A stretch of DNA of 43,477 nucleotides from Spirochaetaceae bacterium (GTDB taxonomy: Bacteria; Spirochaetota; Spirochaetia; DSM-27196; SKKC01), in NCBI GenBank assembly GCA_007128315.1, contig SKXQ01000141.1:1-43477 (forward strand), given 5' to 3'. Positions 2,591 through 13,012 of this stretch are shown here, piece after piece. The notes below the pieces were generated by a model. That model saw only the letters and a list, made by a program, of their open reading frames with translations, did no database searches and was not told the DNA's origin. Made by a program: the position numbers and the translations under genes. Numbering within the stretch: position 1 is the first letter of the stretch; each line of letters starts with the position of its first letter.

Positions 2591-3241
2591 ATGACCACCG
2601 AAGAACGCATTGAACGAATCAAAAGCATGATACAGGACAGCAACTATGTCGCGGCATATACAGCCATCAAGGAGTCATCTCTCGAAAAGCTTGACCGAAC
2701 GGAGCTGACGGGGACGATGGTGGCCCGTATTGTCGATGAGCTCTCGCGTTGTACGAAGCGCGAAGACCGCGAACGCGCCGTGTATCTGCGGACGCTCCTT
2801 TCGTGGATATTTCGCGACGTACCGGGGCTCAGTACACTTTATCGCGAACAGCTCCGGCTTGCACACCGTTCCGAGGGAGACTTCGCCACGGGACTATACA
2901 GGAACTTTCGGACAATGAGTGACGTGGCCGGAGGTCGGAAGACCATCGCCGAAGGCCTTGAGGAAACCGCCGAAAACCTGCGGACCGGCTTCGAAGAAGC
3001 CGCAGATAATCTCAGAGCCGGCGACCCGTCGGAGTCCGTGAAGAGCTTCATGAATGCCGCTGAGAACACGATCAAGGATGGCCTTGAACAGTTCGGACGC
3101 TTTTTTGAGACGCTGAACCAGCAGACAGCCGGGCAGAGCGAGCGCGACGACGACGAACCGACTAACTCGGATACGAACGGCCCCGACGGCACAGCGACGG
3201 AAGATGAAGTTCAGGACGTCGAATTCGAAGAGAAAGAGTAG
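2591..3241 (+). CDS. Conserved-looking hypothetical protein with amphipathic repeat and acidic tail
   Basis: A 216-residue soluble protein of unknown function. Residues 1-110 are mostly helical and charged (starts MTTEERIERIKSMIQ). In the middle are two near-identical 11-residue units, GLEETAENLRT and GFEEAADNLRA, followed by a looser third, typical of an amphipathic helix. The last 40 residues are low-complexity and very acidic (for example DDDEPTNSDTN), ending VEFEEKE. No signal peptide or membrane segment is seen. The ATG at 2591 is chosen over an upstream in-frame start at 2540 because the extra 17 residues look non-coding. There is no spaced Shine-Dalgarno. Its last 31 bases overlap the 3' end of the MFS gene on the other strand. 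It follows the phosphoesterase by 76 bases. Confidence 0.7.
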   Translation: MTTEERIERIKSMIQDSNYVAAYTAIKESSLEKLDRTELTGTMVARIVDELSRCTKREDRERAVYLRTLLSWIFRDVPGLSTLYREQLRLAHRSEGDFATGLYRNFRTMSDVAGGRKTIAEGLEETAENLRTGFEEAADNLRAGDPSESVKSFMNAAENTIKDGLEQFGRFFETLNQQTAGQSERDDDEPTNSDTNGPDGTATEDEVQDVEFEEKE

Positions 3242-4350
3242 CGACTCATGGCTCGACGCGCGCTGAGTGTCAGCGCCAGAGCCGCCAGCAATACGGACAT
3301 GAAACCAGCCTGCACACCGGCGAGATCGTGCAGTCCGGCTATGAGCCAGTTGCCGACTGTTGCAAGGGTAATTGCTGCCACGAGTACGGGCCCCATGAGT
3401 CGTGTTGCCCTTTCGCCGTAGGTCTTCATGAGCTCGCCCATTACGGTCGGATACAGGATGCTGACGAATACGCCGGCGAGCGAGAAGAGGGCGGGGTAGT
3501 CGGGTACCAGAAACCCTGATACGAGGCAGACAAGTGCGCCGAATCCGAACCAGCCTATTGTCCGTATGTAGCCGAAGTGCTCGGCCACGTACGGGCAAAA
3601 AAGCCTCCCTGCTGTAAACAGACCGAAGAACAGCGAGAGGTACAGTCCCGCCTGAGCTTCGCTGTAGTGCCGGACAACGACGAGATAGTTCACCAGCCAG
3701 TTTCCTATGCCTATCTCCAGCAGAATACCGACACCGAGCAGGACTGCGAGCATTCGAACCTGTGGCTGCCGAAGCGCGACACGCAGGCGTTCGTCGCGCT
3801 GGTGGTGTTCGATGTGGCCACTAGTGCTGTCGGAGTTCCGATCCGGAAACGACACAAGGGCAAAGAGCGCAAGCAATGGCAGTGTCAGCGCGATGGGGGC
3901 CACGTAAGCGGCCCGCCAGCCGAACCCGGTCATGGTCATTCTGCCCGCGAACGCTCCGGCGATTGTCGAACCGACACCAAAAAACAGGTGCAGCAGGCTC
4001 ATGCCGACGGCTGGGCGCCGGATGAACAGGCGACTTCCGATGCCGTTCAGACCCATTTCCAGAAATCCGCCCCCGGTCTGCATCAGCAGCACAATCAGGC
4101 TGAACGACACGAAGCCGGCAATAAGCGCGCTTCCGAACTGAGCGAGCGCGACCAGTGCAAGACCTGTCAGGAGAACGGGTTTGAGCCCCCGGACGGCCGC
4201 GAGTCGACCTGAAGCGTATATGGTCACCATGAAGCCGACGGTGGCGATCGAAAAACTGAGTCCAAAGAGATTGTAGAGAACTCCGAACTCCGCCCGAATC
4301 GCGGGAAGCGTTGCCCCACGGACCGCATCGAAGGTACCGAAGAGGACCAT
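3211..4350 (-). CDS. MFS transporter, fucose-permease (FHS)-like; start uncertain
   Basis: At least 379 residues with about eleven to twelve hydrophobic segments, so an inner-membrane major facilitator. Landmarks include GRLAAVRG after the second membrane segment, the MFS loop 2-3 position, and LHLFFGVGST in the fifth, reminiscent of the fucose permease/FHS group that carries sugars and sugar acids. The only ordinary start codon in frame is the ATG at 4350, but this would cut off half of the first membrane segment: the frame continues upstream with NRRRRALLVPTAFAT, a normal-looking basic-then-hydrophobic N-terminus, back to a stop near 4485. The extended frame overlaps the gnd 3' end. Neighbouring gnd and the LarA-like epimerase suggest a sugar-acid substrate, which is inference only. 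Confidence 0.8.
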   Translation of the reverse strand: MVLFGTFDAVRGATLPAIRAEFGVLYNLFGLSFSIATVGFMVTIYASGRLAAVRGLKPVLLTGLALVALAQFGSALIAGFVSFSLIVLLMQTGGGFLEMGLNGIGSRLFIRRPAVGMSLLHLFFGVGSTIAGAFAGRMTMTGFGWRAAYVAPIALTLPLLALFALVSFPDRNSDSTSGHIEHHQRDERLRVALRQPQVRMLAVLLGVGILLEIGIGNWLVNYLVVVRHYSEAQAGLYLSLFFGLFTAGRLFCPYVAEHFGYIRTIGWFGFGALVCLVSGFLVPDYPALFSLAGVFVSILYPTVMGELMKTYGERATRLMGPVLVAAITLATVGNWLIAGLHDLAGVQAGFMSVLLAALALTLSARRAMSRYSFSSNSTS

Positions 4351-4394: not shown

Positions 4395-5861
4395 TTATGC
4401 GTTGTACGTTCCCGCTGATACCGCGCCTCCGCTGCCGGTCCAGTTCGTGTGGTAGTACTCTCCGCGCGGCTTGTCGGTCCGTTCATACGTGTGCGCACCG
4501 AAGTAGTCACGCTGTGCCTGCAGCATATTTGCAGGCAGGCGCTGTGTCCGGTAGCCGTCGAAGAAACTCAGCGCCGCACCGAGCGCCGGCACTGGTACCC
4601 CGGCACCGATTGCGCGCGTAACGGCACGTCGCCAGGCGGGGACCGAGTCCCTGGTAGCGGTCGCAAAGACCGGTGCCAGTAACAGGTTCTGCAGCTCGGG
4701 GTTCTTGTCATAGGCCTCAGTTATGTCGCCAAGGAAGGCACTGCGGATAATGCAACCACCGCGCCACATGCCGGCAACAGCACCGAAATCGATCGTCCAG
4801 TTGTTCTCCCTGGCCGCTTCCCGGATCAGCATGAATCCCTGTGCGTAACTCGTAATCTTGGCCGCGAAGACGGCAGCTTCGAGATCAGCGAGCATGGCGT
4901 CGCGGTCACCGCTGCCGAGGACGGCTGAACTGTTTTTCGGTTCGCCGAGAATCTCCGCAGCCTTCACCCGCTCCTCCTTGAGGGCACTGAGCGATCGTGC
5001 GAATACCGCTTCGGCTATCAATGTGACGGGAATGCCGAGATTCGCTGCGTCGACAACGGTCCACTTCCCTGTGCCTTTCTGGCCCGCCGCATCGAGGATG
5101 TTTTCCAGGAGTGGTGAGCCGTCCTCATCCACGGTCCGCAGGATGTCGGAGGTAATCTCAATGAGGTAGCTCTCGAGTCTGCCCTGATTCCACGCGCCGA
5201 AAACGTCGGCCATCTCGGTGTGGGACATGCCGAGCAGCTCGTGCATGATCTGATACGCCTCGGCGATCAGCTGCATGTCGCCGTACTCGATGGCGTTGTG
5301 AACCATTTTCACGTAGTGACCTGCTCCGCCGTCGCCTACCCAGTCACAGCAAGGAGTCCCGTCCGAAGCCCGGGCCGCGATTGCCTGGAAGATCGGCTTG
5401 ACAGCAGGCCACGCCTGCGACGCGCCGCCCGGCATGATGCTCGGACCTGTGCGAGCGCCTTCTTCACCGCCCGAGACCCCTGTTCCGATGAAGAGAAGCC
5501 CGTGCTTCTCAAGTTCTTTTACCCGTCGTTCGGTATCGGGATAGTGACTGTTACCACCGTCGATAACGATGTCCCCTTTATCCAGAAGCGGTATGAGCTG
5601 CTCAATGTAACTGTCGACCACCGGTCCGGCCTTGACCATGAGCATAACCCGTCGAGGACTCTCAAGCATTCCCACGAGGCCTTCGAGCGTTTCGGCTCCG
5701 ACCACTGATGTGCCCTTCGCGGGTCCTGCCAGAAAATCTTCCATTTTTGCAGTCGTTCGATTATGCACGGCGACCGTATATCCGTTGTCATTCATGTTCA
5801 GAACAAGATTCTGCCCCATGACGGCAAGGCCGATCAGTCCGATATCTGCTTTCCTATCCAT
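4395..5861 (-). CDS. gnd: 6-phosphogluconate dehydrogenase, decarboxylating
   Basis: Converts 6-phospho-D-gluconate plus NADP+ to ribulose 5-phosphate, CO2 and NADPH, the third step of the oxidative pentose phosphate pathway, in the cytoplasm. The 488-residue length fits the long, E. coli-type family. Visible are the Rossmann motif GLAVMG (residues 11-16), HNRT after the second strand (the Arg favours NADP over NAD), the family signature IDGGNSHYPDT, the catalytic Lys in GAGHYVKMVHNAIEYGDMQ and the C-terminal QRDYFGAHTYER. A GGATGG ribosome-binding site precedes the ATG at 5861. It lies 31 bases after the LarA-like gene and is almost certainly cotranscribed with it, linking gluconate metabolism to the uronate genes across the divergent promoter. 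Confidence 0.97.
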   Translation of the reverse strand: MDRKADIGLIGLAVMGQNLVLNMNDNGYTVAVHNRTTAKMEDFLAGPAKGTSVVGAETLEGLVGMLESPRRVMLMVKAGPVVDSYIEQLIPLLDKGDIVIDGGNSHYPDTERRVKELEKHGLLFIGTGVSGGEEGARTGPSIMPGGASQAWPAVKPIFQAIAARASDGTPCCDWVGDGGAGHYVKMVHNAIEYGDMQLIAEAYQIMHELLGMSHTEMADVFGAWNQGRLESYLIEITSDILRTVDEDGSPLLENILDAAGQKGTGKWTVVDAANLGIPVTLIAEAVFARSLSALKEERVKAAEILGEPKNSSAVLGSGDRDAMLADLEAAVFAAKITSYAQGFMLIREAARENNWTIDFGAVAGMWRGGCIIRSAFLGDITEAYDKNPELQNLLLAPVFATATRDSVPAWRRAVTRAIGAGVPVPALGAALSFFDGYRTQRLPANMLQAQRDYFGAHTYERTDKPRGEYYHTNWTGSGGAVSAGTYNA

Positions 5862-5892: not shown

Positions 5893-7173
5893 TCAGCCGC
5901 GGTCTGCTTCCCACAAACCCAATCCGGGCTGTGACACGTAAAAGATCTCTTCGCCGTCGACCTGATTCCAGCCGTCGGTCAGCTCCGGAATCCTGAACCG
6001 TTCTGCGAGGGCCTCAGGAGATGCGTATGAGTAGCCTACCGACTCAATCTCGTCCTTCGCAAGTCCGGCAGGGCCCCATGTGACCGAAAACCTTCCATCG
6101 CTTGAACCATGGATGAGATGCGCAGCCGCACTCAGCTGATTTCCGAGCTCATCCTTGCGTGCAACCGCTTCGAGTACGGCCTCGGTTCCGCAGTACCCGT
6201 ACTTTCTTATCAGCCTGTCGATTTCCGCATCCTCACCGAACACTGCTACCCCCGGTGCGTAAATGTACAGTGATCCTCCGCTTGCGATCGCCTTTCGCGT
6301 ACGGTAAATGGCTTTGTTTCCCACCCAGGTTGAATGGTATGTCTCCGGGTCGAGCGAAACGACAACCGTTTCCGGTGCCCGATCGAGTTTGACAACATTG
6401 TAGATCCGGGCAAGCCTGGATGCCTCGTAGAAGCAGTCGGTCCCGGTTCCGGCGAACAGCCCCGTAATGACCGGATGACCGTCGTTGCCGGGAGCTACGA
6501 CGGTCAGAACGTACACAATGTTCATGTCTCCGGTGAACTCGTTCGCGGCACGGTCCAGTACCCGGCGCACCGGTGTATCTGCGAGACCCATTATACGCTC
6601 CATCCCGTAGACCGCACCGAGATAGTGGCTCTTGTCGATGGCATCTGCGCCACCAGTTCCTACAAAGAGATTCTTCGCGTGGTTGGCCATGCCGATGACT
6701 TCATGCGGAACAACCTGCCCTATACTAAGGACAAGATCGTGTTCGCGCGCGGCGACCCGTTTCGAGACCTGAGCAGGCCACTCGAAGGACAGTTTTCCCT
6801 CACTCTGCTCCTCTATGAACGAGGGTTCTATCGTACCGAGCGTTACAACATCCCTGCGGAAGTCGTGAGGCCGGAAGAGCGATTCCGGAATATCAGGGTA
6901 CATGCGCCTGATCTCCCTGCTGCTCATCGGCACGTGGGTGCCGACGGCCGGAAGAACGTCGGTCAGCCGTTCGCCGAGATGGCGGTACACTTCGGCAAGC
7001 ACTTCGCCCGACCCGCTGTGAAGACGTGTAATATCGGGTGGCACCGCCATAACCCGGTCAAGTCCGTATCCGTCTGATTCGAGTTTCGAAAACAGCACTC
7101 CGAGATGCTCGGCTAAGTCCTGTGCCCCCAGGCCTCCGTTTTCCGGAGGAATATGAACCCGTAAATATGTCAT
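5893..7173 (-). CDS. LarA-superfamily nickel-pincer epimerase/racemase (candidate D-gluconate/D-mannonate 2-epimerase)
   Basis: A 426-residue member of the lactate racemase (LarA, DUF2088) superfamily. The residues that bind the nickel-pincer nucleotide and do proton/hydride transfer in LarA can be placed: DITR (Asp47, Arg50; LarA Asp72, Arg75), GTHVPM (His80; LarA His108), VPHEVIG (His157; His174), HAKN (Lys167; Lys184, the covalent cofactor site) and KSHYLG (His183; His200, a nickel ligand). The spacings 157-167-183 equal 174-184-200 in LarA. Such enzymes invert the carbon next to a carboxylate, and a gluconate 2-epimerase activity is reported in the superfamily. Beside gnd, uxaC, uxaE and a mannonate oxidoreductase, D-mannonate to D-gluconate is the likely reaction (inference). 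The ATG at 7173 has AGAGGT upstream; an in-frame ATG at 7215 is less likely. The cofactor genes larB, larC and larE are not in the window. Confidence 0.85.
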   Translation of the reverse strand: MTYLRVHIPPENGGLGAQDLAEHLGVLFSKLESDGYGLDRVMAVPPDITRLHSGSGEVLAEVYRHLGERLTDVLPAVGTHVPMSSREIRRMYPDIPESLFRPHDFRRDVVTLGTIEPSFIEEQSEGKLSFEWPAQVSKRVAAREHDLVLSIGQVVPHEVIGMANHAKNLFVGTGGADAIDKSHYLGAVYGMERIMGLADTPVRRVLDRAANEFTGDMNIVYVLTVVAPGNDGHPVITGLFAGTGTDCFYEASRLARIYNVVKLDRAPETVVVSLDPETYHSTWVGNKAIYRTRKAIASGGSLYIYAPGVAVFGEDAEIDRLIRKYGYCGTEAVLEAVARKDELGNQLSAAAHLIHGSSDGRFSVTWGPAGLAKDEIESVGYSYASPEALAERFRIPELTDGWNQVDGEEIFYVSQPGLGLWEADRG

Positions 7174-7205
7174 GTCATTTGACCTCTGTCTGCATTGTGG
7201 TAGTC

Positions 7206-7234
7206 TTGATAGCACCCTCGGTGTGCAGGGTCAA
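7206..7234 (-). promoter_or_regulatory. Promoter for the LarA-like/gnd operon
   Basis: On the minus strand TTGACC (7229-7234), a 17-base spacer and TATCAA (7206-7211). The predicted start near 7200 gives a leader of about 27 bases before the ATG at 7173. Good match to sigma-70 consensus, judged by eye. Confidence 0.55.
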
Positions 7235-7250
7235 GCGAAGAATTATCGGT

Positions 7251-7279
7251 TTGACAGCGACTCCGACTCGGAATAGGGT
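7251..7279 (+). promoter_or_regulatory. Promoter for the uronate (SDR-uxaC-uxaE) operon
   Basis: A perfect TTGACA (7251-7256), a 17-base spacer and TAGGGT (7274-7279), about 40 bases before the start at 7326. It sits back to back with the minus-strand promoter at 7206-7234, so one regulator bound between them could control both arms. No clear operator palindrome is visible. Confidence 0.55.
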
Positions 7280-7325
7280 CTGAACTGTCAATCATTCACG
7301 ATTACACAATAAAGGATGGACAGTA

Positions 7326-8147
7326 ATGTCATATGTTGAACAGATGTTTTCTCTGCCGAATACGTCCGCAGTGGTGACCGGTGGAGCCGGGGTCCTGCCC
7401 GGTGTCATGGCTCGAGCGCTGGTGAATGCCGGTGCGACGGTTACGCTCTGGGGTCGGGGCACGAGTCATCCCGTCGCCGATGCGGTTGAAGCCCTGAAAA
7501 AAGAAACCGGTATCAGCGACCGTATCTTCGGGGTGACCGTTGATACCTCCGACGAGGACGCCGTCAGCGCGGCTTTCGAAGAAACCTGCATTCATGCCCC
7601 TGTACCCAATCTCCTCGTAAATGGAGTCGGCGGAAACAAGGGAAAGGGCGACTTCACGGACATCGACGTCGAGCTGTTTCGTCAGATTGTCGACATGAAT
7701 CTCATCGGCGGTCTTGTTGTGCCGACCAAGATCTTCGCATCGAAGTGGCAACAGGAAAAGATGGCCGGCTCCATCATCAATCTTGCTTCTATGAGCAGCT
7801 ACCTGCCGTTGAGCGGCGTGTGGGCGTACAACGCCGCGAAGTCAGCGGTCATGAATCTCACGGTTGCCACTGCCCGCGCGTTCGCCGAACATCGCATTCG
7901 TGTAAACGGCATCGCTCCCGGGTTCTTCATCGGCCACCAGAACAGGGCCCTGCTGATCAAGAACGACGAAACAGGCGAGCTTACCGACCGTGGCCAGCAG
8001 GTCATAGACCGTACACCGTTTGGGCGTTTCGGGAATTTTACGGACATGGAAGGTGCAACGGTATTTCTCGCCTCCGAACAGGCTTCCGGTTTCATAACCG
8101 GGGTAACGATTCCGGTTGACGGCGGATATCTGACCCACAATATCTGA
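7326..8147 (+). CDS. SDR-family fructuronate reductase / D-mannonate oxidoreductase
   Basis: Probably reduces D-fructuronate to D-mannonate with NAD(P)H, the UxuB step, as in the short-chain dehydrogenase type known from Bacillus (YjmF) rather than the long-chain E. coli type. The 273 residues show the classical SDR pattern: TGGAGVLPG cofactor loop (18-26), VNGVGG in place of NNAG (98-103), Asn125, Ser155, and Tyr168-x3-Lys172 (YNAAK), with the C-terminal PVDGGY. The ribosome-binding site GGATGG lies before the ATG. It is first gene of the operon with uxaC 20 bases downstream, which is the main reason for the substrate call. 2-keto-3-deoxygluconate (KduD-like) or gluconate 5-dehydrogenase activity cannot be excluded by sequence alone. 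Confidence 0.8.
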   Translation: MSYVEQMFSLPNTSAVVTGGAGVLPGVMARALVNAGATVTLWGRGTSHPVADAVEALKKETGISDRIFGVTVDTSDEDAVSAAFEETCIHAPVPNLLVNGVGGNKGKGDFTDIDVELFRQIVDMNLIGGLVVPTKIFASKWQQEKMAGSIINLASMSSYLPLSGVWAYNAAKSAVMNLTVATARAFAEHRIRVNGIAPGFFIGHQNRALLIKNDETGELTDRGQQVIDRTPFGRFGNFTDMEGATVFLASEQASGFITGVTIPVDGGYLTHNI

Positions 8148-8167: not shown

Positions 8168-9586
8168 ATGAGCGAGTTTCTTTCACGAGACTTCCTGCTT
8201 GAGACGGATATTGCGCGGAGACTGTATTTTGAGTACGCAGAGCCGCAACCAATTCTTGACTACCACTGCCATCTGTCCCCTGACGACATAGCGCAGGACC
8301 GGCAGTTCAGGACCATCACGGAAATCTGGCTTGCCGGTGATCACTACAAGTGGAGGGCAATGCGCTCCAATGGGGTCACCGAACGCCTGATAACCGGCAA
8401 CGCGACCGATCGTGAGAAGTTTCAGGCTTTCGCCGAGACGGTTCCGTACTGCATCGGCAATCCTCTGTATCAGTGGACACATCTGGAACTGAAGCGCCCG
8501 TTCGGAATCGACGATTTGCGTCTCGACGGAAAGACCGCCGAAACAGTCTGGGATCGCACGAATGAAAAGCTTGCCGAACCGGCGTTTTCGGTACGGGGTA
8601 TTCTGAAGCAGATGAACGTAAAGGTTGTCTGTACTACCGACGATCCGGCTGATGATCTTGCCGCCCATAAACGCATTGCAGCCGATGCGGATTGTCAGGT
8701 GCAGGTGTTTCCCGCGTTTCGACCCGACAAACTTTTTGTTACTCACGACGCGGCGGCATTCAACGCCTACATTGACCGACTCGGAGCGGCTGCGGGCTCT
8801 GAGATTGGAAGCCTTCAGGATCTCTACGATGGTATCGACAGCCGCATGAGCTACTTTCACGAGCTTGGCGGACGAATCGCAGACCACGGGCTCGCGGGGC
8901 CCGTCTACGCTGAGTTTACCGACAATGAGGCCAAACGACTTTTCGCCGCGCTCCGCGGCGGGAACGCGCTTGACGCTGAGTCGGGAGCAAAACTGCAGAC
9001 TGCAATCATGCTGGAACTGAATCGCGGTTATCACGATCGCGGATGGACGTCTCAGTATCATTTCGGGGCGATGCGGAACAACAACCGTCGCATGTTCGAA
9101 AAGCTTGGCCCGGATACCGGCTACGACTCGATGGATGACACGCCGATGGCACGCATACTCTCCGCCATGTTGAGCGCCATCGAAGCGCACAGCGGGCTTC
9201 CGAAAACGATTCTGTACACTAACAATCCGATCTTTAACGAAATGATGGCTACCATGACTGGCAATTTTCAGGACGGAGAAATCCCGGGAAAGATGCAGTT
9301 TGGTTCGGGATGGTGGTTTAACGACCAGAGAGACGGAATGGAGCGCCAGATGATCGCTCTGGCGAACATGGGCCTGCTTCGAAGATTTGTCGGAATGCTC
9401 ACCGACTCCCGGAGTTTTCTGAGTTTTCCGCGTCACGAGTATTTTCGAAGAATTCTCTGTAATTTGCTCGGAAAATGGGTACAATCAGGGGAGATTCCGG
9501 ATGATGTCGAACTGCTCGGCAGCATGGTCCGGGAGATCTGCTGGGAGAATGCTCGGGACTATTTCAAGCTTCCAATAAAGGGGTAG
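8168..9586 (+). CDS. uxaC: Uronate (glucuronate/galacturonate) isomerase
   Basis: Interconverts D-glucuronate with D-fructuronate and D-galacturonate with D-tagaturonate, the first step of hexuronate breakdown, in the cytoplasm. The 472-residue length and overall sequence fit UxaC, an amidohydrolase-superfamily enzyme. The HCH metal motif is at residues 33-35 (ILDYHCHLSPDD), followed by DHYKWRAMR and, later, TDNEAKRLF and FGSGWWFNDQRDGM, both typical of the family. AGGAG precedes the ATG by a normal distance. It lies between the mannonate oxidoreductase gene and uxaE, with gaps of 20 and 6 bases, in one operon. Confidence 0.96.
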   Translation: MSEFLSRDFLLETDIARRLYFEYAEPQPILDYHCHLSPDDIAQDRQFRTITEIWLAGDHYKWRAMRSNGVTERLITGNATDREKFQAFAETVPYCIGNPLYQWTHLELKRPFGIDDLRLDGKTAETVWDRTNEKLAEPAFSVRGILKQMNVKVVCTTDDPADDLAAHKRIAADADCQVQVFPAFRPDKLFVTHDAAAFNAYIDRLGAAAGSEIGSLQDLYDGIDSRMSYFHELGGRIADHGLAGPVYAEFTDNEAKRLFAALRGGNALDAESGAKLQTAIMLELNRGYHDRGWTSQYHFGAMRNNNRRMFEKLGPDTGYDSMDDTPMARILSAMLSAIEAHSGLPKTILYTNNPIFNEMMATMTGNFQDGEIPGKMQFGSGWWFNDQRDGMERQMIALANMGLLRRFVGMLTDSRSFLSFPRHEYFRRILCNLLGKWVQSGEIPDDVELLGSMVREICWENARDYFKLPIKG

Positions 9587-9592
9587 ATTAAC

Positions 9593-11143
9593 ATGCGAGA
9601 CATAATTCAGGTTGCCGTTCGAAACAAGCTGCTCGACCAGTCGCAGGAGGCACTCGACCAGGCCGCTACGGGTGCCCGTGAGCCTCTGTACACTGCGGGT
9701 AAGGCGGGAATCTATCGATCGTCCTGCCGGTTCCGCGACAGTGTTCTGTTTCTTGTGGGTCGCACTGAAACAGACAGAGTGATGCTTGCGCTGTCAAAGA
9801 CTCAGTTCCGCTCTGCCTTCCCGGGTAAACCTCAGCGCATGCAGGGTGTGTGGGCTCTGGAGATTCCCATGACGTTTCCAAACGCGAAAAAGCTCTGGGA
9901 AATGTTCCCGTTTACGCGGCCGGTGACAACGAAGTCATCGCTACCCGGTATCGGTTTCGGTGATCGGCTCGGCATTTCCACGGCTGCTCATATACGGGTC
10001 GCAAAACAGTACAAGCTCTTTCCGGTGTTTGCCCAGCAGAGTGTACGCGAGCTGTCCGCTCTTGGTCGAAACTACCAGCAGACGGTCGCGGACGCGGCGT
10101 TTGCGGTCTTTCAGGAAGGGTATCAGGATGGCTACGGTGCCGACGCCGATCACATGCGCTCCATGCGTGACGTGCGCGACTTCGCAAAGGCCGAACCGTC
10201 CATGATGACGCTTGATATCAGCGACTTCGTCCGTGGCGATATGGACTCGCTTGACAATCGCTCCCTGCAGGAAGCGTTCCGGAAGCTGCCTAAAAAGGAA
10301 CAGTCCCGGATCCGACGCTCGTACTCGGGCAAGTCCTTCAATCTTTCTGGTACGTCGATACGCTTCCGTCCGGGCGATGCAGAGCGCTGTGCAGTCATGT
10401 ATCACAGCGGAATAGAGTTTGCTGCGAAGGCTTCAGCCTATCTGCACAAGATCCGGGGCGAAGACTGTACCATCGAGTTTACCGTAGACGAAATCCCTGT
10501 CGAGACCAGACTCGTTGACCACTTCTTCATAGCCTCAGAGCTCGAGGCTCGCGAAATACCCTTCTACAGTCTTGCCTTCCGTTTTCCGGGCGCAATGCAG
10601 AAGGGAGTCGATTACAAGGGAGATCTCCGGGCGTTCCGAAGCACATTCGAAGGCTTTGCCGCTGTCGCCACCTCGGTGTCTCCCCACCGCGTCGGCATAC
10701 ATTCAGGGAGCGACAAGTTCTCGCTGTATCCCTGGATTGGTAAGCTCTCAGGAGGCTCCTATCATCTCAAGACTTCGGGTACGAGCTGGCTCGTCGCGAT
10801 CGAGACCATAGCCGATATCAGCCCTGATCTGTATCGCCGAATACACGAAAAAGCCATGGACGAGTTCCCGAAAGCGCTCGCCAGGTACGAAATCGATGCG
10901 GACATAAACGAGGTGCCGGCCCTGGAAAAGGTCCGTGACCGTCAGCTCAAGGACCTTCTGTCGAATCCGCACTGGCGACAGCTCATGCATATCTCGTACG
11001 GTGGTATTCTTTCCGATGAAGATCTCAGAAAGGATATCATGCAGGCGCTTCATAAAAACGAGGATGCGTACTTCGCCGCGATCGCAAAGCACTTTCGTGC
11101 TCACATTGACGGCCTCGGGGTTGAGACGCGAAAGGCTGGATGA
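9593..11143 (+). CDS. uxaE: Tagaturonate epimerase (UxaE family)
   Basis: A 516-residue protein recognised as UxaE, the tagaturonate-fructuronate epimerase described in Thermotoga maritima. It lets galacturonate (via tagaturonate) join the glucuronate branch at fructuronate, so that no altronate enzymes are needed. Features include GIGFGDRLGIST, DHMRSMRDVRDF and conserved His/Asp/Glu clusters such as GIHSGSDKFSLYP that probably bind the metal. The protein has no signal peptide. AAGGGG lies 9 bases before the ATG. The gap to uxaC is only 6 bases. Its TGA overlaps the ATG of folB (ATGA), so folB is translationally coupled although it has no metabolic tie to uronates. Confidence 0.88.
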   Translation: MRDIIQVAVRNKLLDQSQEALDQAATGAREPLYTAGKAGIYRSSCRFRDSVLFLVGRTETDRVMLALSKTQFRSAFPGKPQRMQGVWALEIPMTFPNAKKLWEMFPFTRPVTTKSSLPGIGFGDRLGISTAAHIRVAKQYKLFPVFAQQSVRELSALGRNYQQTVADAAFAVFQEGYQDGYGADADHMRSMRDVRDFAKAEPSMMTLDISDFVRGDMDSLDNRSLQEAFRKLPKKEQSRIRRSYSGKSFNLSGTSIRFRPGDAERCAVMYHSGIEFAAKASAYLHKIRGEDCTIEFTVDEIPVETRLVDHFFIASELEAREIPFYSLAFRFPGAMQKGVDYKGDLRAFRSTFEGFAAVATSVSPHRVGIHSGSDKFSLYPWIGKLSGGSYHLKTSGTSWLVAIETIADISPDLYRRIHEKAMDEFPKALARYEIDADINEVPALEKVRDRQLKDLLSNPHWRQLMHISYGGILSDEDLRKDIMQALHKNEDAYFAAIAKHFRAHIDGLGVETRKAG

Positions 11144-11544
11144 ATCATGTTCTTCCCGTATGCGTAGCGCTTGACGCGTTGCGCGTGAGGGCATGTGTGG
11201 GGCTGACCGAAGAGGAACGAAAACGTCCTCAGGACCTTCTATGCACTTGTACGGTGGTTCTGCCGGCGGATTACCGCCCGGACCGCGATACGATCGAAAG
11301 CACGGTCGACTATGGCGAGCTTGCGAGGCGGATCCGGGCCGTGGCGGCTGCGACCGAAGCGAAGCTTCTCGAGCGGCTCGCATGGGACCTCGGCACGGAT
11401 GTAATAGACGTGTTTCCGGCGGCTGCGACTGTTACCATCAGCCTGACCAAAACAGGCCGGGTATCCCGCTGCGACGGGGCACGGGTGGATGTGACAATCA
11501 GTCGCGACGGCCCAGGCCGTAGACCTCAGTCAGCAGATGACTGA
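11140..11544 (+). CDS. folB: Dihydroneopterin aldolase
   Basis: Cleaves 7,8-dihydroneopterin to 6-hydroxymethyl-7,8-dihydropterin and glycolaldehyde in folate synthesis. The 134 residues fit FolB: LRVRACVGLTEEER holds the active-site Glu region, TVDYGELARRI is the conserved substrate-binding block, LLERLAWDL follows, and the Lys in TISLTKTGRV corresponds to the catalytic Lys of the usual KP motif (the Pro is Thr here). The start overlaps the uxaE stop (ATGA). The 3' 47 bases overlap the end of the convergent uridylyltransferase gene, which explains the low-complexity tail GPGRRPQSADD. No other folate genes are in the window. Confidence 0.85.
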   Translation: MNHVLPVCVALDALRVRACVGLTEEERKRPQDLLCTCTVVLPADYRPDRDTIESTVDYGELARRIRAVAAATEAKLLERLAWDLGTDVIDVFPAAATVTISLTKTGRVSRCDGARVDVTISRDGPGRRPQSADD

Positions 11545-13012
11545 GACCGGCATTGAGCTTCTCCGCAGTCCCTTTCAGATCCTTCTCGGGGTTTTCATCT
11601 GTCGGAAAACCCGGTTCGTCGAGATGGACGCCATTGGTCATGAAGCTTTCACTCAGGAGTTTTGCGGCAAGGAATCGACGGTACTTGTCGACCGCGAAGA
11701 TTATGGGGTCGTCAATCATGCCGATAACTTCCCAGGTCACCTGTTCAGCCTGTGAATAGAGGCCTGCGTCCTTATCCTGGTCAGAAAGCCGCAACGGAAG
11801 GTCCGACTCAATGCGGTCGATATTCGCGTCGAGCCAGTCGAGGTCAAAGAGCCCTGTCGCACAATTGAAAAGGATAGACGTTCCCGACTTCTCGGTCTCC
11901 TCGACGTAGCTCCGGGAGACGGCCGGTCCGATATCCCCACAGGTCAGACCCTTGTTCATATCCTCAATCAGAATCCCGCCTTTTACGTCCACCGGTGTCC
12001 TGTAGGCGAACTCGAAGGCCGCAGGTCTGCCGGTCAATGCAAAAAACGCAACTGTCACGGGATCAACGGTAAATCCGAGATTATCAACGTTTCCGATGTA
12101 GGCAAAGCGGAATCCGTCAGAACGAAGACTCCGGTAAACGGATTTCAGGACCGAGAAGCTCTGGCCGTGACCTCCGGGGAGCGCGAGCGTGCGTCCGTGC
12201 TCTCCGTATGCGCGGTCGAATATGCTACGAGGCGAACCATGCCTGGAGTGCGTGTAGGCACTGATCATGGGCTGAACACCCGTCCTGACCGCGGTTATGT
12301 CGACACCAGTTTCTGCTATCAGGTCTTTCAGAAGCGGTGAGTTCCGGTACGCTTCGTATGCGCGCGACAGCTCGTCGTTGTTGTGAACGCTGCTCATCTG
12401 AAAGATCGGTGCGTGACCGGCAGGCAGTGCGGATCCGGTCGCATCCCGGCTCTCCGATAGAAGCAGCAGGAGATGTCGCATCTTGAGCTCGAGGTAGCTG
12501 GCCCCAGGCACTCCTGTGGAACTGAACAGGGCGGGGGTCAGCCCCTTCGCTTTGCCGCGGACAGCCTCTCCGATAGTGTTCAGCAATGGTTCGTACAAAC
12601 GGTATAGAGTCTCATTGAAATCCCGGTTCTTTGTGTGATCTGCGTAACTTGTGGCTGATCCACCGTTGAGAACACCATATGCGACGCGTGGAAGCAGATG
12701 CAGCCCGATCTCCCGAAGCTGATCGGCACCAAGGGTGACGGGGCCCGAAACGGGAATTTCAAAACGGAGCCGATCCGGTACGAGGCCGAGCTCGCCGAGG
12801 CGCCTGTGAAGCGCTCGGGCGTCGCCTGTCCATGTCGGTGCGGATACCGTATCGACGATACGGTCACCGTCAACTCCGGGGATGCCACGAGCCTCGCCAG
12901 TCTCGCCGGTGCTCACCTTCCCGCTGTTGATGCGATCCAGCAGCGAAAGGCTCAACGCAACGTCGATCTTCTTCTTTTCCATGTCCCTGTGCAGGGCGTC
13001 GCTGATCTTCAT
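11498..13012 (-). CDS. UDPGP-family UTP-sugar-1-phosphate uridylyltransferase
   Basis: A 504-residue nucleotidyltransferase of the eukaryotic-like UDPGP family, most likely forming UDP-glucose (or a UDP-amino sugar) from UTP and the sugar 1-phosphate. The nucleotide loop is VLNGGSATSYADHTKN (residues 114-129); compared with the canonical LxGGxGTxxG...PK it lacks the second Gly and the Pro-Lys. Later blocks GGHGQSFSVL and GNVDNLGFTVDP match the UTP- and sugar-binding regions. GGAGGT lies 8 bases before the ATG at 13012, inside the 3' end of the glucokinase gene, three bases downstream of which this gene starts, so the pair is an operon that could run glucose to glucose 6-phosphate and, with phosphoglucomutase from elsewhere, to UDP-glucose. 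Confidence 0.82.
   Translation of the reverse strand: MKISDALHRDMEKKKIDVALSLSLLDRINSGKVSTGETGEARGIPGVDGDRIVDTVSAPTWTGDARALHRRLGELGLVPDRLRFEIPVSGPVTLGADQLREIGLHLLPRVAYGVLNGGSATSYADHTKNRDFNETLYRLYEPLLNTIGEAVRGKAKGLTPALFSSTGVPGASYLELKMRHLLLLLSESRDATGSALPAGHAPIFQMSSVHNNDELSRAYEAYRNSPLLKDLIAETGVDITAVRTGVQPMISAYTHSRHGSPRSIFDRAYGEHGRTLALPGGHGQSFSVLKSVYRSLRSDGFRFAYIGNVDNLGFTVDPVTVAFFALTGRPAAFEFAYRTPVDVKGGILIEDMNKGLTCGDIGPAVSRSYVEETEKSGTSILFNCATGLFDLDWLDANIDRIESDLPLRLSDQDKDAGLYSQAEQVTWEVIGMIDDPIIFAVDKYRRFLAAKLLSESFMTNGVHLDEPGFPTDENPEKDLKGTAEKLNAGLSHLLTEVYGLGRRD

Follow-up and report, generated by a model that had tools for sequence, protein, structure and literature searches.

The gene at positions 5893 to 7173 of the window (the whole stretch of 43,477 nucleotides analyzed here) encodes a LarA homologue of group 18 with an intact nickel-pincer active site, and it resides in a genome in which none of the known enzymes for making the nickel-pincer nucleotide (NPN) was found. 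This orphan state, in which a strictly conserved nickel-pincer site persists without the known cofactor pathway, is the part that deserves attention. We propose, with a probability of roughly 0.6, that the protein is a D-mannonate/D-gluconate 2-epimerase that uses NPN obtained either by salvage or through an undescribed pathway. The features of the locus are compiled in Table 1.

Table 1. Features of the larAH locus, with positions in the window
Feature	Position	Strand	Remarks
MFS transporter	3211..4350	(-)	PF07690 81.6 bits; 44 bp downstream of gnd
gnd, decarboxylating NADP 6-phosphogluconate dehydrogenase	4395..5861	(-)	TIGR00873 732.8 bits; 31 bp downstream of larAH, same strand
LarA homologue ORF (larAH)	5893..7173	(-)	426 aa + stop; ATG at 7173; AGAGG 9 nt upstream of start
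Group-18 LarA homologue, predicted D-mannonate/D-gluconate 2-epimerase (GntE-like)	5893..7173	(-)	NF052594, Lar_N, 4NAR match, predicted fold
Divergent intergenic region, 152 bp, between larAH-gnd-MFS and uxaD-uxaC-uxaE	7174..7325		One 13-nt imperfect inverted repeat, 7284-7296 / 7312-7324
UxaD-like short-chain dehydrogenase (fructuronate reductase / mannonate oxidoreductase)	7326..8147	(+)	NF006132 226.6 bits, below cutoff 281; divergent from larAH
uxaC, uronate isomerase	8168..9586	(+)	PF02614 658 bits; NF002794 611.9 bits
uxaE, tagaturonate/fructuronate epimerase	9593..11143	(+)	PF16257 458.8 bits

The active site was examined by alignment to the structure 4NAR, using the residue numbering of LarA and GntE2 given in PMC7583248. 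Residues D47, R50, H80, H157, K167, H183, and K287 correspond to D72, R75, H108, H174, K184, H200, and K298 of LarA, respectively. The intervals of 10 and 16 residues between H157, K167, and H183 equal those between H174, K184, and H200 of LarA, the second one also recurring between K164 and H180 of GntE2, and D47-x-x-R50 aligns with D72/R75 of LarA and D38/R41 of GntE2. The initial annotation had reported this exact spacing and had matched Asp47-x-x-Arg50 and His80 to the other LarA active-site residues, both of which the alignment confirmed. It had further claimed that every nickel-pincer residue is kept; the six listed residues were correct, but the list omitted K287, the last catalytic residue. 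In 109 group-18 homologues whose LarC status is known, D47, H80, H157, H183, and K287 are invariant, whereas R50 and K167 vary once each. In view of this near-complete invariance, the conserved pattern cannot be ascribed to chance.

The protein matched NF052594 (NCBIfam NPN_18_hexonate, LarAH group 18, named "nickel-dependent putative hexonate epimerase") over its full length with 554.7 bits, the equivalog cutoff being 500 bits, and the LarA superfamily domain PF09861 (Lar_N) with 33.9 bits (cutoff 23.3). The sole solved relative retrieved by sequence search was 4NAR (E 6e-27), identified as GntE2, the D-gluconate 2-epimerase of Thermotoga maritima (PMC7583248). An AlphaFold2 model with a pLDDT of 92.9 likewise had 4NAR as its best PDB match (TM 0.81), and only LarA-family entries were recovered at E ≤ 0.001. 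Two of the checks proposed in the initial annotation, alignment with characterised LarA homologues and structure prediction, led to the LarA family with GntE2 as the closest relative, the lactate and malate racemases being more distant. The lactate racemase model NF033504 gave no match to the protein at E ≤ 0.001, and the malate racemase models NF052593 and NF052595 reached only 43.8 and 27.6 bits, compared with cutoffs of 500 and 462. Together with the pocket residues described below, these scores ruled out a placement among the lactate, malate, or hydroxyglutarate racemases. Group 18 is large: at least 582 stretches of the GTDB representative genomes match it, and the best 80 of these matches derive mainly from Acidobacteriota, Planctomycetota, Bacteroidota, and Spirochaetota. 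No activity of any group-18 enzyme was found in the LarA-homologue literature searched; an action on hexonates has been put forward as a hypothesis (PMC7583248). Overall, the protein belongs to a LarA group that was already known, and its proposed role in the pathway is well supported.

The residues that vary with the substrate among LarA homologues have been defined previously (PMC7583248). Groups 19 and 20, which contain the GntE enzymes, carry a signature of an E-V/S loop, a Trp in alpha11, and an Ala or Val in alpha14, and group 18 shares it. In our protein, this signature is represented by E158-V159, the two residues following the catalytic His, by the conserved W283, and by A349. The loop positions are occupied by FF in LarA, YK in Mar2, and ES in GntE2. 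S348-A349 lie where LarA has a Trp and Mar2 a Lys, with S348 corresponding to W358 of LarA and N348 of GntE2. N286, the residue in front of the catalytic Lys, does not vary within group 18, whereas GntE2 has a Gly there; the substrate may therefore differ slightly from that of GntE2. Since family model, substrate-pocket residues, predicted fold, and gene neighborhood all agree, the data support a sugar acid (hexonate) as the predicted substrate, and not lactate, malate, or hydroxyglutarate. This agrees with the initial annotation, which had deduced a sugar-acid substrate from the genetic setting. The idea is not new, given the gntE/uxa/gnd locus of T. maritima (PMC3750489) and the hexonate function already suspected for group 18 (PMC7583248).

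The gene neighborhood supports a predicted role as D-mannonate/D-gluconate 2-epimerase. For the UxaD-like protein, the best NCBIfam model was NF006132, D-mannonate oxidoreductase. The gnd-MFS order is kept in a relative (G001) with 93% identity; the transporter possibly serves sugar-acid uptake, and the divergent intergenic region may be regulatory. Across 138 group-18 loci, a gnd homologue occurred in 76 (within 600 bp in 56, and on the same strand in 69 of the 76), followed by members of the SDR (uxaD) family in 70, UxaC in 51, UxaE in 39, a HAD hydrolase in 35, and a PfkB kinase in 26. The HAD-family hydrolase, of about 297 aa and with a weak PF13419 match (cluster 5; L057:352-1242 and 34 other loci), adjoins larAH in 29 of the 35 loci having it, in LarC-positive and LarC-negative genomes, and is absent from the window. 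Positions 11498-13012 of the window encode a UDPGP-family nucleotidyltransferase with a weak Pfam match, followed by a glucokinase; the nucleotidyltransferase (cluster 16) is conserved near uxaE in several relatives.

No sugar-acid kinase was found in the window, the locus has no gntK, and none of the FGGY kinases examined scored as a canonical gluconokinase over the cutoff. The genome does encode a PfkB kinase on contig C131 (G000:C131; L235:6293-7417). Tannerella forsythia, Carboxylicivirga, and another Bacteroidetes genome have a kinase 25-50 bp upstream of their group-18 genes, and the C131 protein is 63-69% identical to these kinases. It is apparently orthologous to this Bacteroidota kinase and a candidate gluconate or mannonate kinase; a role as KDG kinase is also conceivable.

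We infer the substrate and the direction of the reaction as follows. During uronic-acid breakdown, the enzyme probably converts mannonate to gluconate. It would invert C2 of D-mannonate by the proton-coupled hydride-transfer mechanism of LarA, with H80 and H157 as acid/base; the nickel-pincer nucleotide, bound by K167, R50, and H183, would take up the hydride transiently. UxaC, UxaE, and UxaD would deliver the mannonate, and a kinase, probably the C131 PfkB, would make 6-phosphogluconate for the adjacent Gnd. The epimerase would thereby link uronic acids to the oxidative pentose-phosphate route, leading from uronate via fructuronate, mannonate, gluconate, and 6-phosphogluconate to ribulose 5-phosphate, with the kinase acting before or after the epimerase. 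If the C131 PfkB is a mannonate kinase, 6-phosphomannonate would be the substrate of the epimerase. A substrate pair of 6-phosphomannonate and 6-phosphogluconate, or another hexonate, in place of free D-mannonate and D-gluconate appears unlikely, yet it is the most serious of the alternatives considered here. It would fit the PfkB kinases flanking many group-18 genes, the deviation of N286 from GntE2, and the mannonate kinase and subsequent 6-phosphomannonate 2-epimerase activities measured in extracts of L. suebicus, whose genes are unassigned (PMC6978723). However, groups 19 and 20, which share the EV/S, W, and A/V signature with our protein, use unphosphorylated D-mannonate (PMC7583248).

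LarB, LarC, and LarE are the known enzymes of NPN biosynthesis. Profile searches of the genome, a 3.3-Mb draft that is 90.6% complete, detected no LarC. The matches to the LarE model turned out to be GMP synthase and NAD synthetase, and that to the LarB model was PurE, so that divergent versions of both proteins were dismissed. The same searches found LarB, LarC, and LarE of T. maritima. The set for making NPN, which one would expect of the system and not of the protein family, is missing in this genome. Contig C6 (L123:1871-3172) encodes a second LarA homologue, whose loop reads PHFF and whose residues resemble those of LarA; the lactate racemase model is the closest to it (408.6 bits, cutoff 460). 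The genome thus contains two LarA-type genes without an NPN pathway.

Among 148 relatives of the same class, LarC was detected in 35, LarE in 34, and LarB in 33, in nearly identical sets of genomes. LarC was absent from 53 of the 72 genomes of the class with a full-length group-18 gene, including our own, and 17 of these 53 are at least 95% complete. Outside the class, LarC was present in 35 of 50 group-18 genomes. Of the 15 lacking it, those from Bacteroidota, Ignavibacteria, and Spirochaetota were also devoid of LarE, whereas a LarE-like gene, or a fragment of one, is retained in those from planctomycetes. In Phycisphaerae and related planctomycetes with a group-18 LarAH (L216-L222), a TIGR00268 LarE-like gene occurs without a PF01969 LarC; either LarC has been replaced, or the LarE-like protein has another role. 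An alternative LarC linked to LarE was sought in the Phycisphaerae genomes and not found. In one genome (G050), larC-larE-larB directly follow a group-18 paralogue that is apparently frameshifted close to its start (L081, G050:C1:717431-721727), indicating that group-18 genes accompany NPN biosynthesis in at least some cases. In Edaphobacter, LarC is located about 5 kb from the group-18 gene.

The absence of the pathway had no visible effect on the enzyme. In 60 sequences from LarC-lacking genomes, D47, H80, H157, K167, H183, and K287 show no variation and R50 deviates in a single sequence, and the 49 sequences from LarC-containing genomes gave the same picture. Sister pairs with differing LarC status are 73-85% identical, and no alignment column of the 109 homologues separates the two sets, which ruled out a sequence shift marking the loss of NPN use. 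The dN/dS values between group-18 genes of LarC-lacking genomes were 0.03-0.15. On the enzyme tree, a quick tree with some long branches, LarC status changes about 20 times, at least 11 of them on well-supported branches. A replacement pathway encoded beside the group-18 gene was also ruled out, as gnd, SDR, UxaC, UxaE, HAD, and PfkB genes accompany it in LarC-containing and LarC-lacking genomes alike; a DeoR regulator, which is not a biosynthetic enzyme, occurs near group-18 genes mostly in LarC-lacking genomes.

Could the missing LarB, LarC, and LarE be an artefact of draft genomes or insensitive models? Most of the genomes are indeed drafts, our own among them. However, LarC is missing from 17 of the 30 group-18 genomes that are at least 95% complete, for which the chance is 5e-15 if 5% of the genes are missing. 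One LarC-lacking genome (G071) consists of a single 4.0-Mb contig, and its group-18 protein shares 85% identity with a counterpart from a LarC-containing genome. Neither LarC nor LarE was found in the isolate Tannerella forsythia OH1426, and intact LarC genes of relatives were detected at E values of about 1e-130 to 1e-150. We therefore regard an artefact as very improbable. Still less credence is due to the view that the protein is a degenerate or relic homologue. The missing NPN biosynthesis would fit a relic, but the ORF is full-length, none of the seven catalytic and ligand residues has been lost, its dN/dS relative to the same-genus orthologue is 0.08, and the gene order is conserved. The initial annotation was thus very probably right in rejecting a degenerate homologue. 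Its expectation of a working nickel-pincer enzyme is supported in part: the LarA-type active site is intact, but the annotation had overlooked that LarB, LarC, and LarE are missing from the genome.

A further alternative is that the group-18 enzymes of these genomes employ another hydride-carrying or metal cofactor at the same residues, or that their mechanism needs no cofactor. This would account for the inseparable sequences of the two sets and for the lack of association between LarC and the group-18 gene within the class, where LarC occurred in 19 of 72 genomes with the gene and in 16 of 77 without it (Fisher p 0.45). It would not explain, however, why the NPN-binding residues K167, H183, and, with one exception, R50 are invariant in the absence of LarB, LarC, and LarE. 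The group-18 genes in or near lar operons of some genomes, the high share of LarC-containing group-18 genomes outside the class, and the NPN requirement of the related GntE2 (PMC7583248) also argue against it, and we consider it improbable, if less so than an artefact.

From the sequence data, it is plausible that the protein functions with a nickel pincer in this cell. As the genome lacks LarB, LarC, and LarE, the NPN must come from elsewhere, and we infer the identity and the source of the cofactor accordingly: most likely, NPN or a late precursor would be taken up from neighboring cells, or else NPN would be made by a route not yet described. NPN-binding residues kept under purifying selection, combined with a patchy loss of the whole pathway, are what one sees with a salvaged cofactor, although an undescribed pathway would give an identical picture. 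NPN added to the apoprotein in vitro activates LarA homologues (PMC7583248), which makes the uptake of ready-made NPN chemically plausible. Our analysis identified no NPN transporter or salvage gene.

The absence of the pathway implies that the cofactor is exchanged between microbes or that a second biosynthetic route exists. As a tentative extension, NPN or a late precursor may be shared among microbes much like a vitamin: many anaerobes, most of the spirochaete-like class among them, might retain NPN-dependent enzymes after repeated losses of the biosynthesis and acquire the cofactor from their community. Cobalamin provides a precedent for such uptake. The reverse case, genomes with larBCE and no larA, is described in PMC11796402. 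The literature searched, to which the 2014 survey (Nat Commun, ncomms4615) did not belong, yielded no description of a LarA homologue without larBCE. In addition, the analysis provides a specific, testable substrate for a large uncharacterized group of LarA homologues.

Compared with known systems, the protein shares the fold, the NPN site, and the catalytic residues with the lactate racemase LarA (5HUQ) and the malate racemase Mar2 (6D6Z, 7S91), but has only 16-17% identity to them and different substrate-pocket residues. With LarAH group 18 (NF052594), it has in common the full-length match above the cutoff, the E-V loop, and the catalytic residues; the function of that group is a hypothesis (PMC7583248), and the genome of the present member lacks LarB, LarC, and LarE. 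GntE2 of T. maritima (LarAH20, 4NAR) has the same seven active-site residues with the same spacing, is the best fold match, and has the same pathway neighbors gnd, uxaE, and uxaD (PMC3750489). It differs by an identity of 24% in the structural alignment, its assignment to a separate LarAH group, and a Gly in place of N286. The pectin/galacturonate locus of T. maritima comprises gnd, uxaE, uxaD, gntE, and gntK (PMC3750489), and that organism possesses LarB, LarC, and LarE, in contrast to our genome. Relative to this hexuronate-to-pentose-phosphate locus, gnd, uxaD, uxaC, and uxaE are present here, whereas gntK is not, the PfkB candidate being encoded elsewhere in the genome. L. suebicus likewise joins the uronate isomerase steps to 6-phosphogluconate, the kinase there preceding the epimerase (PMC6978723).
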